Below, piece by piece: positions 33,608 through 40,173 of a DNA stretch of 64,000 bases. The translations under genes and the position numbers were made by a program. The stretch lies in contig JAOTYL010000002.1 in assembly GCA_029861865.1 (NCBI GenBank), forward strand, positions 310,001 through 374,000, read 5' to 3'. The notes under the pieces are model-generated. The model searched no databases. It was not told the origin of the DNA and saw nothing but the letters and a program-made list of their open reading frames with translations. The first letter of the stretch is position 1; every line of letters starts with the position of its first letter. Source of the stretch: Myxococcales bacterium (GTDB lineage Bacteria > Myxococcota_A > Polyangia > Polyangiales > Houyiibacteriaceae).

Positions 33608-33647
33608 ACCCTCGTCATAGCGGCCGATTGCGACTAAACTCTTGCCG

Positions 33648-34811
33648 ATGTTTCCATCGCCTGGTGGCGCTCATCCTCCGCCGGACGAACTCTTCGCCGG
33701 GCGCTACGCGGTCGACGGCCAGTTGCCGTGGGGCGGGCTCGTCTCTTATTACAGAGGCTCGGCAGAGGGAACGCCTCTGATCATCTGCATCTTTCCGATG
33801 GATGTCAGTCGCTCCCGCCTCGCAGAAGCCGCGTTCTCGCAGCTGACACAAAGCTTGGGGCGGATTCAGTGCCGTTCGATCCCGCGTGTGCTCGACGCAG
33901 GCATCATCGATGGCGTTCCCTACGTAGCATTTCAGGACACGCGAGGGACTCCTCTATCCCACCTGCTGCGTGACCGAAAGCTGCCTTCGGTAGGGGTGCT
34001 TCGGATCGCGAGTGACGTGCTGCAGGCGCTCGAAGCCGCGCACGCGCAGGGCCTCGCACATGGGGACGTGACCCCGGAAAACGTCATCATTACGCGAGAA
34101 AGCGACGGTGCGTTGGCGGCTCGTGTGATCGGGACGGGTGTCGTTCCACTGCTCCGTGCATGTCCCGAAGCGAGCGCCCACGCAGCGCATACCGGGTCAG
34201 GAAAGCACGCTGTGGCGTACATGGCTCCAGAGCTCATCGGCACCGGGGCTTTCCCCCTTTCCGCAGACCTGTACTCGGTCGGCGCTCTGTTGCACCACAT
34301 GGTGCTCGGCTCCCCACCGGTAGGTTGGGAAACCGACGAAGGCTTTGAAGACATTCCAGCGCTTCCTGACGTGATTCGTCGCGCCATGGCCAAACGCCCC
34401 GAGGGCCGCTACCCCGACGCGACGTCCATGTTGGCAGCGCTCGGGTGGGTCGAGGTCGAGTCCGCGAAGCTCAACCCGCAGACCCAGGACATCGCCCCCT
34501 GGATGGAGTCTTCACGAATTGGGTCGATCCCGGTGCCCACCCTGGCCTCCTCGTTGCCCCCGGCACACGTCAGCAGCAACCATCCGGCAGGAACCGTGCT
34601 CAGCGTCTCAGGCCCACGGCCGCGGCCAAAGGCACCAATCATCGTTCAGGACGCGACCTCGGAGAACAAGCGCCACTGGGTGAGAATCGCGCTCTTGCTC
34701 GTGCTGTTGGGCACTCTCGTCTTCTCCGGCTACTGGTGGACGGGTCAAAGGAGCGCTAACCAAGAAGCTCTGTCTCCTGATCTCGCCCCCGCCACGGAAT
34801 ATGTTGAGTAG
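33648..34811 (+). CDS. Serine/threonine-kinase-like protein, probable pseudokinase
   Basis: 387 residues from the ATG at 33648. The protein has the kinase fold order but lacks key residues. The glycine loop is replaced by LPWGGLVSYYRG (26-37), and the strand that should carry the VAIK lysine reads TPLIICIF (42-49). The catalytic loop is HGDVTPEN (138-145) in place of HRDLKPEN, and no DFG is visible (IGTGVVPL instead). YMAPELIG and later helices are kept. One membrane segment lies near 346-366. ATP-dependent catalysis is therefore doubtful. The stop overlaps the sigma factor start by 11 bp. Confidence 0.8.
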   Translation: MFPSPGGAHPPPDELFAGRYAVDGQLPWGGLVSYYRGSAEGTPLIICIFPMDVSRSRLAEAAFSQLTQSLGRIQCRSIPRVLDAGIIDGVPYVAFQDTRGTPLSHLLRDRKLPSVGVLRIASDVLQALEAAHAQGLAHGDVTPENVIITRESDGALAARVIGTGVVPLLRACPEASAHAAHTGSGKHAVAYMAPELIGTGAFPLSADLYSVGALLHHMVLGSPPVGWETDEGFEDIPALPDVIRRAMAKRPEGRYPDATSMLAALGWVEVESAKLNPQTQDIAPWMESSRIGSIPVPTLASSLPPAHVSSNHPAGTVLSVSGPRPRPKAPIIVQDATSENKRHWVRIALLLVLLGTLVFSGYWWTGQRSANQEALSPDLAPATEYVE

Positions 34812-35370
34812 GCCACCAAACCCGCAATCCACCGACGAAGAGCTGATGGATGCCTACATCGATGGGAGCGATCAGGCGTTCCGATTGCTGTTCGAGCGTT
34901 ACGCGCCGATCCTCCTCCGGCTGACTCGCCGGCACCTCCGGTCGGACGAGCTCGCCGAGGAGATCGTGCAGCAGACGTTCTTTCGACTCCACGGAGCCCG
35001 CAACGACTTCCGTCGGGGTTCGAAGCTCAGGCCCTGGGTGATGACGATCGCGATGAATCTCGTCCGAGAGCACTGGCGGCGAAAGAAGCGTCGGAAAATG
35101 ACCTCCCTGGAGGTCGAAACCCAGGCCGCGCCGGAAGCCGAGCTCATGCCCCTCGAGATTCGAGAGCGCGCGAAGCTTCTGCACGCAGCCCTCGAGAAGC
35201 TCCCGAATAGCCAGCGGGAAGTGGTCGAGCTCCATTGGTTCCAGGAGCGCCCCTACGCCGAGGTTGCGACGATTGTGGGCACTTCGGAGGGGGCTGTGCG
35301 CGTTCGCGCACATCGGGCGTACGCAACTTTGAAACAATTACTAGTTTCGGAAATACGTGGTGATGAATGA
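34801..35370 (+). CDS. ECF-type RNA polymerase sigma factor
   Basis: 189 residues. Region 2 runs through AFRLLFERYAPILLRLTRRHLRSDELAEEIVQQTFFRLHGARNDFRRGSKLRPWVMTIAMNLVREHWRR. Region 4 is LPNSQREVVELHWFQERPYAEVATIVGTSEGAVRVRAHRAYATL with a helix-turn-helix. No region 3 is present, as in ECF factors. It overlaps the pseudokinase gene by 11 bp and the NrsF-like gene by 4 bp, so all three are made together. The anti-sigma partner is probably the next gene. Confidence 0.93.
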   Translation: MLSRPPNPQSTDEELMDAYIDGSDQAFRLLFERYAPILLRLTRRHLRSDELAEEIVQQTFFRLHGARNDFRRGSKLRPWVMTIAMNLVREHWRRKKRRKMTSLEVETQAAPEAELMPLEIRERAKLLHAALEKLPNSQREVVELHWFQERPYAEVATIVGTSEGAVRVRAHRAYATLKQLLVSEIRGDE

Positions 35371-36095
35371 CTAGAGGCAGCGACGGGGCAGGTACGGACG
35401 ACGGTCTGGGCAAGCGGCTACGCGAGCTCGACCCGGCGAGCGAGGCCAATGATCGCGAGCTGATCGACCGGATGTTCAGAAATGTCAAAGGTCAGTGCGC
35501 AGACAGCGACAGGCGAATCACAGGCTTTGTCCGAAGCCGGTCGACCATCGTCCGGCGACTCATCGTGTTGGTCGTGTTTGCGGTGTTGGCCGTCATTGGC
35601 TGGTACAACTTCCCCCTCGTCGACGAGTCTGTGCGCACGGGACAGTGGGTCGCAACGCTCGCAGCCTTTTGCATTCTTCTGATCGTCGCCATGCTGATGG
35701 TCACCCGTCCAGTACATCGACCGGAGCTTCCACGTTGGCAGGCCGTATGCCTCGTCTGCGTGGCGGTTGGGGCCACGGTCCTTGCCGCCTTTTGGCCAAC
35801 CGCCGGGGCGCAAGCTATCACGCACGAACACACCAGCCGAATGGTAGCCGGCGCGTGCATGGGTTTTGGGCTGTTGCTCGGGGTTCCCGTCTATGCGTTG
35901 CTCCGCTTAGTCGATCGAGGCAATGCCTTTGGCAGCTTGATCGCTGCATCGGCTGCGGGGCTCGCGGGCAACTTCGTGCTGAAGGCTCACTGCGAGATCG
36001 AAACTACCGGACACGTCCTTCTCGGCCACGCCTCGGTCGCAGTTTTATTCGTCATGGGTTTGGGGTTGGTTCACCGCTGGATTCCGTCGAAATAG
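35367..36095 (+). CDS. NrsF-like (DUF1109) membrane anti-sigma factor
   Basis: 242 residues. A cytoplasmic N-terminus of about 60 residues is followed by about six membrane segments. The last loop carries GNFVLKAHCEIETTGHVLLGH, where the HC...H...H pattern resembles the conserved motif of DUF1109/NrsF proteins, the membrane anti-sigma factors of some ECF groups. The ATGA overlap with the sigma gene supports this pairing. The match to the family is by pattern, not by a search. Confidence 0.75.
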   Translation: MTRGSDGAGTDDGLGKRLRELDPASEANDRELIDRMFRNVKGQCADSDRRITGFVRSRSTIVRRLIVLVVFAVLAVIGWYNFPLVDESVRTGQWVATLAAFCILLIVAMLMVTRPVHRPELPRWQAVCLVCVAVGATVLAAFWPTAGAQAITHEHTSRMVAGACMGFGLLLGVPVYALLRLVDRGNAFGSLIAASAAGLAGNFVLKAHCEIETTGHVLLGHASVAVLFVMGLGLVHRWIPSK

Positions 36096-36167
36096 GCGGT
36101 AATTGATTCGACTCCTCGCCATTCGGCACGCAAAACAGGCTATGCTTCCCGGCCCGAGGAGGGTTCT

Positions 36168-37523
36168 GTGAGCGAACAGCTGCGGCGCGACTTCAACGAC
36201 AAGGGCATCCGGAAGGTCAGGGTTGGCGGCTTCGATATCGACGGAGTCCTGCGCGGCAAGTACATCAGCTTGGAAAAGTTCTGGTCGGCCCTGGACAAGG
36301 GCTTCGGGTTTTGCGACGTGATCTTCGGCTGGGACATCAACGACCAGCTGTACGACAATGCCAAGGTCACCGGCTGGGACACTGGCTATCCTGACGCGCT
36401 TGCCCGCATCGATACAGCGACGATGCGGGTCCTGCCTTACGCCCCAGATACTGCCGATTTCTTGGTCGACTTCTACACACCGGAGGGCCAACCCCATCCA
36501 GCGTGCCCTCGAGGCTTGCTCAAATCGATCAACCAAAGAGCCCTCGACGCCGGCTTTCGCGGCAAGTTTTCGGCCGAGTTCGAGTTTTGGGTGTTCCAGG
36601 AGACTCCAGAAACCCTGCACGAGAAGGGATTTCGCGACCTGCAGCCTTTGAGCCCCGGGATGTTTGGCTACTCTTGGTTGCGTCAGGGACAACACCAACT
36701 CCTGGTCGACGATATCTTGGACACGTGCGAGGCGTACGACATCGCCATCGAGGGCCTCCACCCCGAGACGGGTCCAGGCGTGTGGGAAGTCGCTCTACGA
36801 TACAATGACGTCGTGTCCGCAGCCGACAAAGCAGCGCTCTTCAAGACGACACTCAAACAGATCTGCGATCGCCACGGCTACTCGGTGACATTCATGGCGA
36901 AATGGAATCCCGACCTGCCGGGATCGAGCGGACACCTCCACCAAAGCCTTTGGGATGCGGGCGGTCAGATCAACCTGTTTGCTGCGGCCGGGAGTGACAC
37001 GCTGAGTGCAACGGGTCTTCACTACCTCGGTGGGTTGGTCACGTTGGCGCCTGAGCTCACCGCGCTCTACTCGCCGTTCGTCAACAGTTACAAACGGTAT
37101 GTACCCGGGGTCTGGGCTCCTCTCACCGCGTCTTGGGGGATCGAAAACCGCACTTGCGGGTCGAGGGTAATCCTGGGGCCAAGCGACCACGCCGCTCGCA
37201 TCGAGTTTCGGCAGACCGCGGCGGACATCAATCCATACATCGCCATGGCGACTTGTCTCGGCTCCGGGCTCTATGGTATCGCGCAAGAAACCGCCCCGCC
37301 CCGCATGACCTCGGGCGACGCAACCCAAGACCCAGACCCCTCGCTCGCCCTGCCCCCAACGCTCGAAGCCGCGGTCGGCCGGCTCCGCGAGAGTCAGGCA
37401 GTCCGAGATGTGCTTGGCGAAGATTTCATCGACCACTATATCCGCACCAGAGAATGGGAGTGTCGCGAGTATCGGAAGTCCGTGAGCGAATGGGAGCTCC
37501 AGCGCTACTTCGAGTCCGCATAG
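36168..37523 (+). CDS. Glutamine-synthetase-family protein
   Basis: 451 residues. The GTG start is preceded by the strong ribosome site GAGGAGG. Catalytic-fold motifs are KFSAEFEFWVF (metal-binding Glu), IEGLHPETGPGVWEVAL, NPDLPGSSGHLHQSLWD (ATP and glutamate site), YVPGVWAPLTASWGIENRTCG and ARIEFRQTAADINPYIAMA. The sequence resembles the GlnA-like/gamma-glutamyl-amine ligase branch more than a classical GlnA. The amine substrate is unknown. It leads a run of five closely spaced rightward genes with plsB-like, gpsA, an alcohol dehydrogenase and dciA. Confidence 0.88.
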   Translation: MSEQLRRDFNDKGIRKVRVGGFDIDGVLRGKYISLEKFWSALDKGFGFCDVIFGWDINDQLYDNAKVTGWDTGYPDALARIDTATMRVLPYAPDTADFLVDFYTPEGQPHPACPRGLLKSINQRALDAGFRGKFSAEFEFWVFQETPETLHEKGFRDLQPLSPGMFGYSWLRQGQHQLLVDDILDTCEAYDIAIEGLHPETGPGVWEVALRYNDVVSAADKAALFKTTLKQICDRHGYSVTFMAKWNPDLPGSSGHLHQSLWDAGGQINLFAAAGSDTLSATGLHYLGGLVTLAPELTALYSPFVNSYKRYVPGVWAPLTASWGIENRTCGSRVILGPSDHAARIEFRQTAADINPYIAMATCLGSGLYGIAQETAPPRMTSGDATQDPDPSLALPPTLEAAVGRLRESQAVRDVLGEDFIDHYIRTREWECREYRKSVSEWELQRYFESA

Positions 37524-37531
37524 AGGGGTAG

Positions 37532-39241
37532 ATGATGTTGAAACGCCTTTTTTCAGAACGCCCCCTCCGGTTACCTCACATCAGGCCGTACGTTCCGCGC
37601 CCGAGTGACCCCTCGATCTTCTGGTTCAACAGCGAGCGCGGCGACATCGTGTCGGACGTGGTCAATCGAATCTGCGTCGCGCACGAGACCGACCGTTCAC
37701 GGCTCGAGATGGCCCTCAACGATGCAGCGTTCCACGAGATTCGACGCCTCGAACAGCAACGCGACGAGGAAGCGCGAGACCGGCTCGGGTATTGGCGTTC
37801 GATGATCCGGCGCATCGGCAAGATGGACGACGCCGAACAGCGACAGGCGCTCCACACAATCGTGGCCAACATGGCCCACGACGTGGCTGGCAACTTCGAT
37901 CCCCGTGTTTACCGCTTCGCGCGCCAAGCGATACCGAGAATGGTCGCGGGGGTCATGGAGCCGCGGCGGTTCGCCAGCAGTTTCACGGCACCTCAGTCCG
38001 AGGTGCTCAGCCGAGTATTGCGCGTCCAGGGAGACATCGATCACCTCCAGTATCTTCAGTCCGAAGGGAGCCTCGTTTTCGTTCCCACTCACTCGTCGAA
38101 TCTCGACTCGATCGTGCTGGCGCAAGCGCTCGAGGTATCCGGATTACCCCCCGTCATATACGGAGCCGGCAAGAACCTCTTTACCAATCCGATCATCAGC
38201 TTCTTCATGCACAATCTCGGCGCGTATCGAGTTGACCGGCGTATCCGCGTTCGGCTCTACAAAGAGGTGCTGACGCTCTACTCCCAAGTGATGATCGAGC
38301 GAGGCTATCATTCGCTTTTCTTCCCCGGAGGCACGCGAAGCCGCTCTGGAATGATCGAGCGGCATCTAAAGCTCGGCTTGCTCGGCTCCGCTGTGGAAGC
38401 GTTCACGACCAATCGCGTGCGGCGCGTCCAACGACCGGTCTGGTTCGTCCCCACGACGATCAACTACGCCCTGGTGCTTGAAGCGGAGACGCTCATCCGA
38501 GATTGGCTCACAGAGGAGGGCCAAACCCGTTACATCATCGAAGACGACGAGTTCTCCCAGATCGATCGCTGGGTTGCGTTCTTCCGCAAGGTGGTCGGGA
38601 TGCGGGGCGCCTGCATCATTCGATTTGGTGAGCCAATCGACCCGTTCGGAAACGCGATCGACGAGAAGGGAGGATCGCTCAGCCCGGCAGGTCACAACAT
38701 CGACCCCGGTGGGTACGTAGAGAGACGTGGAACACCTGTCGTCGATCTATCTCGGGACGCCGCCTACACACGAGAGCTCGGAACCGTGCTCGCCGAGCGG
38801 TATGAACAGGACACGGTGTTGATGAGCACGCAGGTAGTCGCCCACGTCCTGTACCGTCATCTCGTACAGGCGACGCCCGGGATGGACCTTTTCGCGCGTA
38901 TGCGGCTCCGGAACGAAGTAAGCATCGATCGTGCGGTCGTCCACAAGGACCTCGGTGATGCCCGGGATAGGCTGCTCGCACTCGAAGCGAAGGGCCAAGT
39001 TCTGATCAGCGACGTCGTCCGCGAGGACTCGCCAGACCAGCTAATCGAAGCAGCCCTTCAGTTTTGGAGCGGTTACCACAACTCCACCGCCGCGAGCCTG
39101 GAGGCCGATCGCGTCCTACTCTGCGACCCGTCGCTGCTTCTCTACTATCAGAACAGATTGGTGCCCTTTGCCGATCGCATCGCCGACACCGAGCAGATGC
39201 AAGCCGCATGCGAGATCGAAGCACTAGGGGTTCACCGATGA
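37532..39241 (+). CDS. PlsB-like glycerol-3-phosphate acyltransferase
   Basis: 569 residues, beginning 8 bp after the preceding stop. The acyltransferase HxxxxD motif appears as PTHSSNLDSIV. Block II is IYGAGKNLFTNPIISFFMHNLGAYRVDRRIR and block III is LFFPGGTRSRSGMIE. A C-terminal region of about 200 residues has no membrane segment. It likely acylates glycerol-3-phosphate, in keeping with the gpsA gene that overlaps its stop by 4 bp and supplies that substrate. PlsB of E. coli is longer (about 807). Confidence 0.87.
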   Translation: MMLKRLFSERPLRLPHIRPYVPRPSDPSIFWFNSERGDIVSDVVNRICVAHETDRSRLEMALNDAAFHEIRRLEQQRDEEARDRLGYWRSMIRRIGKMDDAEQRQALHTIVANMAHDVAGNFDPRVYRFARQAIPRMVAGVMEPRRFASSFTAPQSEVLSRVLRVQGDIDHLQYLQSEGSLVFVPTHSSNLDSIVLAQALEVSGLPPVIYGAGKNLFTNPIISFFMHNLGAYRVDRRIRVRLYKEVLTLYSQVMIERGYHSLFFPGGTRSRSGMIERHLKLGLLGSAVEAFTTNRVRRVQRPVWFVPTTINYALVLEAETLIRDWLTEEGQTRYIIEDDEFSQIDRWVAFFRKVVGMRGACIIRFGEPIDPFGNAIDEKGGSLSPAGHNIDPGGYVERRGTPVVDLSRDAAYTRELGTVLAERYEQDTVLMSTQVVAHVLYRHLVQATPGMDLFARMRLRNEVSIDRAVVHKDLGDARDRLLALEAKGQVLISDVVREDSPDQLIEAALQFWSGYHNSTAASLEADRVLLCDPSLLLYYQNRLVPFADRIADTEQMQAACEIEALGVHR

Positions 39242-40173
39242 GCCTACAGGTCGGCGTGGTCGGCGCGGGCGGCTTTGGACAGGCGATCGCGCGTGCGGCC
39301 GCGCGGCAAGAGCACGACGTCGTGCTCTGGAGCCGACGAGAGCGATCCGTTCCAGAGTCGATCCGCGCGTCGACAAATATCGATGACATGAAAGATCGCG
39401 ACGTGATCTTTCTCGCGGCGCCTGCCCGGCACGCGACGAGTATTGCGGATCAGCTCGGGAAGGTAGTCGATGGTCGGCACTTGATCGTGCACGTGAGTCG
39501 CGGTCTCATCGGCGCGGAGCTCAAGACCATCACGACCGTGCTTCGCGAGCACACGGCGGCGCGGCGCCTTGGCGCCCTAGCCGGCCCTCTGGTCCCCAAT
39601 GCGCTTGCGGAGGGGCGACCGAGCGGTGCCATCCTCGGAACCATGTTTCCGGAGGTCACCGAGATGGTTCGAGAAGCGATCGGCGGCATGGAGCTTCGAA
39701 TCTACGACACGACCGACGTGTTAGGCGTACAACTGGCGAGCGCGACCGTCGGCTTCTTGACCGTGGTACTCGCATACGCGCAAGCGACTGGCGTCGAGCC
39801 AAGCACCCTAGCCGTCTTGGCGACCCGCGGGATGGTCGAGATCTCACGTATCGGTCAGGCGCTCGGTGCATCCGAGGAAACATTCATGGGGCTTGCCGGC
39901 CTCGGAGACTTGATCGCAGCGGTGGCCGGCGACGAGCGAGCCGAATCCCTCGTCGGTCGTGCGCTGGCACGCGGTGCAGAGCTCGCGAGCGCAGTCGCCG
40001 AAGCGGGCGCGTACGTCGAGGGCGTCGAAGTCGCCGAGCACATGATCGAACAGGCGCACCGGCTTGGCTTGCAGACTCCAATCTCCTCGGTCTTCGTCGA
40101 AATCTCCAATCGACGCATGACCCCCGAAGATGCGCTGCACGCTCTGATGGAGAGGCGTGTGGGCCCAGAATGA
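39238..40173 (+). CDS. gpsA: NAD(P)-dependent glycerol-3-phosphate dehydrogenase GpsA
   Basis: 311 residues from the ATG at 39238, which overlaps the plsB-like stop. Nucleotide-binding GVVGAGGFGQAIARAAARQ is at the N-terminus. RRLGALAGPLVPNALAEGRPSGAI and GLAGLGDLIAAVAGDERAESLVGRALARG are family motifs, though in GpsA the usual forms are LSGPSFA and GDLxxTCxSxxSRN. The divergence suggests a distinct branch. It would make glycerol-3-phosphate for phospholipid synthesis. It overlaps the next gene by 4 bp. Confidence 0.85.
   Translation: MSLQVGVVGAGGFGQAIARAAARQEHDVVLWSRRERSVPESIRASTNIDDMKDRDVIFLAAPARHATSIADQLGKVVDGRHLIVHVSRGLIGAELKTITTVLREHTAARRLGALAGPLVPNALAEGRPSGAILGTMFPEVTEMVREAIGGMELRIYDTTDVLGVQLASATVGFLTVVLAYAQATGVEPSTLAVLATRGMVEISRIGQALGASEETFMGLAGLGDLIAAVAGDERAESLVGRALARGAELASAVAEAGAYVEGVEVAEHMIEQAHRLGLQTPISSVFVEISNRRMTPEDALHALMERRVGPE

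Follow-up and report, generated by a model that had tools for sequence, protein, structure and literature searches.

ECF sigma factors are controlled by anti-sigma factors or by adjacent active kinases. Bacterial pseudokinases, to our knowledge, have been assigned few functions. CarR is described as a six-span, DUF1109-like and divergent protein (PMC9304148). For ECF43 (EcfK/PknS, EcfP/PknT), two reports describe a membrane protein of the Hanks-type kinase fold encoded beside the ECF sigma factor, an active kinase that phosphorylates this sigma factor, and usually no anti-sigma factor (PMC13147305, PMC8999054); region 2.2 of the sigma factor is given in one of these reports as being without an acidic (DAED) motif (PMC8999054). 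The bacterial pseudokinase families named in a review are ActPs1-3, GLW, CP1, DYD and DLHK (PMC12599244), and the words "sigma" and "myxococc" are absent from the text of that review. In Myxococcus xanthus, 11 of 99 kinases are counted as pseudokinases (PMC6791715).

Locus and gene organization

The window considered here is a stretch of 64,000 nt from a Myxococcales bacterium (contig JAOTYL010000002.1, 310,001-374,000); the genome to which it belongs (G000) has a size of 4.2 Mb, and its closest named relatives are uncultured myxobacteria, e.g., "Myxococcales bacterium SG8_38" (L078). Positions 33648-36095 of the window hold three plus-strand genes, in the order pseudokinase, ECF sigma factor and anti-sigma factor, which are referred to below as the triad. 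Their features are as follows.

33648-34811, + strand: membrane pseudokinase, 387 aa
33690-34448, + strand: kinase-fold domain, residues 15-267, without the VAIK Lys, alpha-C Glu and DFG Asp and with HGD Asp140 and Asn145
34449-34562, + strand: juxtamembrane segment on the cytosolic side, residues 268-305 (DIAPWME...SIPV), better preserved than the other parts in the second triad genus
34668-34736, + strand: single membrane helix at about residues 341-363, then a short unconserved tail (from sequence; model helix 336-372)
34801-34811, + strand: 11 bp shared by the end of the pseudokinase gene and the start of the sigma gene, in 15/15 genus loci
34801-35370, + strand: ECF sigma factor, 189 aa, regions 2 and 4 (profile matches)
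35367-35370, + strand: 4-bp ATGA overlap of sigma and anti-sigma genes, in 13/13 loci
35367-36095, + strand: NrsF-related multi-span membrane protein, 242 aa, presumed anti-sigma factor

The first-pass annotation of this DNA had reported three genes overlapping by 11 and 4 bp, and both overlaps are confirmed at these coordinates. In all 15 genus loci that show the junction (the window counted), the pseudokinase stop has an ATG at exactly -11, and the ATGA overlap was found in all 13 sigma/anti-sigma junctions examined; given this conservation neither overlap is a product of chance, and the coupling of the pseudokinase to the pair that the annotation had claimed is tight and conserved. The 11-bp overlap is absent in L051 (G009), the sole triad outside the genus. 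The start of the pseudokinase at 33648 is supported by the conserved N-terminus of its orthologues.

Fold and catalytic residues of the pseudokinase

The kinase fold assigned earlier to the first gene product is borne out by a PF00069 match of 52.4 bits (cut-off 31.7), by an AlphaFold model in which approximately residues 12-275 form a kinase domain, and by the similarity of this model to known structures, with Z values of about 25 to PknA, PknB and PknS (for PknA 4ow8: Z 26.1, rmsd 2.5, 247 aligned). In the sequence the VAIK Lys is gone, HRD has become HGD, the catalytic-loop Lys is Thr and DFG reads GTG, so that all four losses listed by the first-pass annotation are present; the alpha-C Glu is gone as well, and the annotation had left out that the catalytic Asp140 and the loop Asn145 are retained.

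Two of these four losses are not diagnostic. The window genome has 44 PF00069 matches, the pseudokinase included, and in 12 of the 43 other kinases the loop-Lys position is Ser or Thr with the VAIK Lys and DFG intact, while HGD is found in one of the 43; changes of the HRD Arg and the loop Lys therefore do not indicate inactivity, and the missing catalytic-loop lysine was rejected as an argument for it. Alignment with these 43 kinases does show the VAIK Lys and DFG Asp to be missing in the pseudokinase. WNK-type kinases have a relocated lysine. The pseudokinase has its first Lys at position 111, which leaves neither the N-lobe nor the glycine loop with a Lys to substitute for that of VAIK, and the DFG Asp is replaced by Gly without an acidic replacement. 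Since a pseudokinase is defined by the loss of at least one of the VAIK Lys, HRD Asp and DFG Asp, and the first and last of these are lost here, the name is appropriate; with both residues gone and no alternative N-lobe Lys, the protein is likely to be catalytically inactive. Degenerate kinases are a minority in the window genome and the pseudokinase is not unique among them: four of the 43 other matches (L218, L219, L221 and L222) are without the VAIK Lys or the DFG Asp.

The pseudokinase family

A profile of seven members, searched against 177 genomes of the order (G177 and G178 are not listed in the result), placed the family in 28 of them at E 1e-45. The family motifs are common to rows down to 3e-64, and rows near 1e-47 are other kinases, with the exception of a contig-end fragment in G024. 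The corresponding phylum search found the family in 14 of 377 genomes, all of the same order, and it was not detected outside this order in the 377 sampled; both genome sets were drawn evenly from larger groups and are hence incomplete. No relative was found in 49 candidate viral stretches, and comparison with a defence library gave general kinase matches only, to which no meaning was given.

In a tree of 41 of 47 rows (L184 and five long-branched rows of the window genome were left out), the 19 family rows are set apart from 22 other kinases as a single clade (100/100), and the operon-linked pseudokinases, from two genera, likewise group in a clade of their own (100/99). The family is marked by HGD (or HWD/HLD), by Ile/Leu/Val-[CAS] at the Lys site and by G-x-G in place of DFG. 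None of its 19 rows has the VAIK Lys, the alpha-C Glu or the DFG Asp, the last being Gly in every row.

The same rows keep the HxD Asp (19/19) and the loop Asn (18/19), residues that a pure scaffold would not need, and in the triads Arg36 and further basic residues do not vary. These features give reason to consider that the protein is still an enzyme, with an atypical mode of nucleotide binding and with the anti-sigma or sigma factor as acceptor of phosphate or AMP, as is the case for some kinase-fold proteins that lack the usual residues; kinase-fold DYD proteins are described as retaining ATP binding without the usual Lys (PMC12599244). The uniform change of the DFG Asp to Gly with no acidic substitute, the lysine-free first 110 residues and the family-wide loss of the alpha-C Glu argue against such activity, which we regard as improbable.

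The pseudokinase gene is under purifying selection, with dN/dS of 0.09-0.18 over its whole length, similar to the anti-sigma gene. A decaying kinase gene, retained only because it carries the translation start of the sigma factor, would be consistent with the lost catalytic residues and the conserved translational coupling; given these dN/dS values, the intact reading frames and the motifs conserved throughout the family, decay was rejected as an explanation and is scarcely credible.

A second form of the family is encoded away from the sigma gene, in G002, G004, G010, G031 and G032, and its protein is longer. The stand-alone members (L065, L067, L068, L069 and L072) have a membrane helix, a low-complexity acidic or alanine-rich linker and a shared extracytoplasmic C-terminal region. 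This region comprises about 130 residues that are similar among the five proteins; no Pfam family was found in it in the four that were scanned, one of which gave a sub-threshold TPR match. The pseudokinase gene is cut by a contig end in G001 and G011.

Membrane anchor, tail and juxtamembrane segment

The membrane segment noted earlier in the pseudokinase is upheld by sequence and model as a single helix at about residues 341-363, within a model helix spanning residues 336-372. Beyond it follows an extracytoplasmic tail of no more than about 24 residues, which is less conserved than any other part of the protein, with a mean pairwise identity of 0.40 within the genus and 0.05 to the next genus. 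Operon-linked family members are confined to the window genus and one neighbouring genus, and the extracytoplasmic region is missing there.

The first-pass annotation had proposed the pseudokinase as the signal sensor of the system. A single-span membrane protein in a sigma operon, with relatives elsewhere that carry an extracytoplasmic region, would suit such a role, but since the triad form is without this region and its tail is hardly conserved, a sensor function is disfavoured and appears very unlikely. The extracytoplasmic region may have been lost no later than the move into the operon, or it may have been gained in the stand-alone members; the tree is insufficiently rooted and fits either. 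One tentative history, to which we give clearly less than even odds, starts from a receptor-type pseudokinase whose extracytoplasmic region was lost; having entered an ECF sigma/NrsF operon, this kinase fold would have turned into a third component without catalysis, a co-anti-sigma factor or adaptor that keeps the sigma factor at the membrane or passes it on. This step from receptor to sigma-factor partner is directly testable, because the family exists both in a stand-alone form with the region and in an operon-linked form without it.

Conservation in the cytosolic part is distributed differently. Between the two triad genera the juxtamembrane segment has an identity of 0.60, against 0.32-0.43 for the kinase lobes, and its pattern is confined to triads (15 of 183 order genomes). 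A shorter PLW motif is present in three of seven stand-alone members.

Sigma and anti-sigma factors

Identification of the second gene as a sigma factor, as first annotated, is secured by matches above cut-off to PF04542 (residues 30-98) and PF08281 (residues 126-177) and by a TIGR02937 score of 103 bits (cut-off 42.9). It is of the ECF type, with regions 2 and 4, a short linker and no region 3. Region 2.2, examined by eye, contains in ELAEEIVQQTF the acidic LAEE, with no Ser or Thr at that site; as this acidic region is kept, the sigma factor should, in contrast to ECF43, bind polymerase without phosphorylation.

The third gene product had been called an NrsF-like anti-sigma factor. It gave no Pfam match to PF06532 (NrsF) at E up to 1, so the family name has no direct Pfam support, but a homologue in G178 (L140; 38.6% identity), encoded beside a sigma factor 68% identical to that of the window, scores 37.5 bits against the PF06532 cut-off of 26.8. 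Among eight anti-sigma homologues one was above this cut-off, two were below and five gave no match. The model of the window protein has six long hydrophobic helices at a mean pLDDT of 50 (low confidence). By way of this relative the window protein can be called NrsF-related, and its presumed anti-sigma action follows from family and gene order.

Conservation of the triad and co-occurrence of its parts

A survey at the level of the GTDB family covered 33 genomes, the window genome included, and found the anti-sigma gene in 23. The pseudokinase is present in 15 of the 19 genus genomes (at least 60% identity over the matched part), and in all 15 the sigma gene comes next wherever the contig continues. 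In 12 genus genomes a single contig carries the whole triad; the contig ends in or after the sigma gene in G014 and G029 and within the pseudokinase in G016. Of the genus genomes without the pseudokinase, G017 and G022 have the anti-sigma gene right where a contig begins, and no part of the triad was found in G020 (66% complete) or G028 (79%). G024 (100% complete, 4% contamination) holds two different triad copies (L037 and L041; sigma factors 95% and 87% identical), through duplication or a mixed bin.

Outside the genus the only triad is that of G009. A sigma factor 64-70% identical to that of the window, together with an anti-sigma factor but no adjacent family kinase, was found in G001 (only ~0.4 kb of contig upstream of the pair), G002, G004, G008, G031 and G032. 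The claim that the kinase-like gene is conserved with the pair thus stands in part: the genes are always paired in the window genus and one other, but elsewhere the pair occurs without a family kinase beside it. Of 14 genomes that belong to the GTDB family but not to the genus, and with the sigma factor counted at 60% identity or more (G012, at 50%, was scored as neither), seven have both sigma factor and pseudokinase, one the sigma factor only (G008), one the pseudokinase only (G010, 82% complete) and five neither, a co-occurrence with a Fisher two-sided p of 0.026, kinship ignored. Beyond the GTDB family the two are only loosely linked: both occur in G033, the sigma factor occurs in G057, G058 and G179 with no family member at the cut-off, and G061, like G010, has a pseudokinase and no sigma factor at E 1e-50.

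These distributions bear on the proposal that the pseudokinase is the partner of an active membrane kinase, bringing it to a target, the anti-sigma factor or another, and is merely co-transcribed with the sigma pair. The many kinases of the window genome and the stand-alone members not located beside a sigma gene are compatible with this; the operon linkage by exact overlaps, in two genera, and the co-occurrence with the sigma factor where unlinked speak against it, and we judge it unlikely.

Promoter-like stretch and neighbouring genes

The sequence around the triad has the following features.

33612-33640, + strand: conserved promoter-like stretch with TAAACT at 33635-33640, 7 nt before the first ATG (13 aligned upstream regions)
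36168-37523: glutamine-synthetase-like gene, downstream of the anti-sigma gene
37532-39241: PF01553 acyltransferase gene, downstream
After the acyltransferase gene: glycerol-3-phosphate dehydrogenase gene, completing the neighbour block 36168-40173

The promoter-like stretch stays with the operon even where the upstream gene differs, and from its position it would give a nearly leaderless mRNA. A genus promoter consensus, built from relatives, located the operon site in 10 of 19 genus genomes; the window promoter is not among its matches at three mismatches. Since 10 of the 11 matches are the operon promoter, no regulon was found with this consensus, and no shared motif was seen upstream of the sigma gene in other genera. 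Elements of the TAnnCT type are positioned 7 nt ahead of the pseudokinase ATG (33612-33648), and upstream of the next gene (36140-36168) there is a conserved TATGCT.

The three downstream genes follow the triad across the genus where contigs allow, and none of them was found near the triad in G019 (L040/L076). All three are likewise next to the sigma pair in G002 and G008, as is the glutamine-synthetase-like gene in G011. In other genera (L050 and L057; L134 for the first gene) these neighbours are divergent from the sigma pair. They are candidate members of the regulon, or may point to a link with lipids.

A proposed role for the pseudokinase

The arrangement is real and conserved, and it joins two known kinds of element, an ECF/anti-sigma unit and a bacterial pseudokinase. 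Together the data suggest that the pseudokinase helps to control the sigma switch by binding and not by phosphorylation. The three genes would form one regulatory unit in which the NrsF-related membrane protein holds the sigma factor inactive. The pseudokinase would phosphorylate nothing, and a single helix would tether its kinase fold to the inner side of the membrane. Because the sigma factor should need no phosphorylation and has an anti-sigma partner, binding is the role that would remain for a dead kinase fold, and the pseudokinase may act as a non-catalytic adaptor, or scaffold, of the sigma factor, the anti-sigma factor or both. Contact would probably be made through residues 268-305, the likeliest site because this segment is the best conserved between the triad genera and its pattern is confined to triads, and would change how firmly the sigma factor is held. 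Our guess, with a slight lean, is that the pseudokinase strengthens this hold rather than triggers release. The signal would more likely enter through the multi-span anti-sigma factor or the membrane.

We assign a probability of about one half to this membrane-tethered, non-catalytic adaptor of the sigma/anti-sigma complex, in which both the lack of catalysis and the binding are inferred. It is favoured by the overlaps at 15/15 and 13/13 junctions, the single operon-linked clade, the low dN/dS, the absence of the VAIK Lys and DFG Asp from all 19 rows, and the co-occurrence of sigma factor and pseudokinase even when unlinked (n = 14, p 0.026, kinship ignored). Against it stand the kept catalytic Asp and Asn, the sigma/anti-sigma pairs of at least six other genera with no pseudokinase adjacent, the pseudokinases located away from any sigma gene, and the sigma factors of G057, G058 and G179 in genomes without a family member.

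Comparison with known systems

Within the accessible portion of the open literature, the search found neither a pseudokinase in an ECF/NrsF operon nor a description of such a gene beside NrsF or CarR. The pseudokinases of Myxococcus xanthus show that such proteins are common in the same phylum, and no link to a sigma factor is stated in the part of that source available (PMC6791715). With the described pseudokinase families the window family shares a membrane-linked Ser/Thr-kinase fold that has lost the Lys and the metal motif. GLW proteins have GLW for HRD and DYD proteins an Arg for the Lys together with a DYD motif (PMC12599244); the window family, with HGD (or HWD/HLD), a hydrophobic or small residue at the Lys site and GxG, belongs to neither.

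The NrsF/CarR-type systems (DUF1109, PF06532; Caulobacter sigma-F/NrsF and Myxococcus CarQ/CarR) resemble the locus in pairing an ECF sigma factor with a translationally coupled multi-span membrane protein, for which the low-confidence window model has about six membrane helices and a homologue passes the PF06532 cut-off. They differ in that PF06532 does not match the window protein itself (at E up to 1) and that here an additional pseudokinase gene is placed first. From ECF43 the triad departs on three points, having neither an active adjacent kinase, nor a sigma factor free of an anti-sigma partner, nor a region 2.2 lacking the acidic motif: its kinase fold is without the Lys and DFG Asp, an anti-sigma gene overlaps the sigma gene at 13/13 loci, and region 2.2 is acidic. 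A fixed gene partner of this kind is a rare handle on the function of a pseudokinase. Compared with both known types, a kinase fold without its catalytic residues has here been built into a sigma/anti-sigma unit, and two plans of control are seemingly merged with phosphorylation left out.
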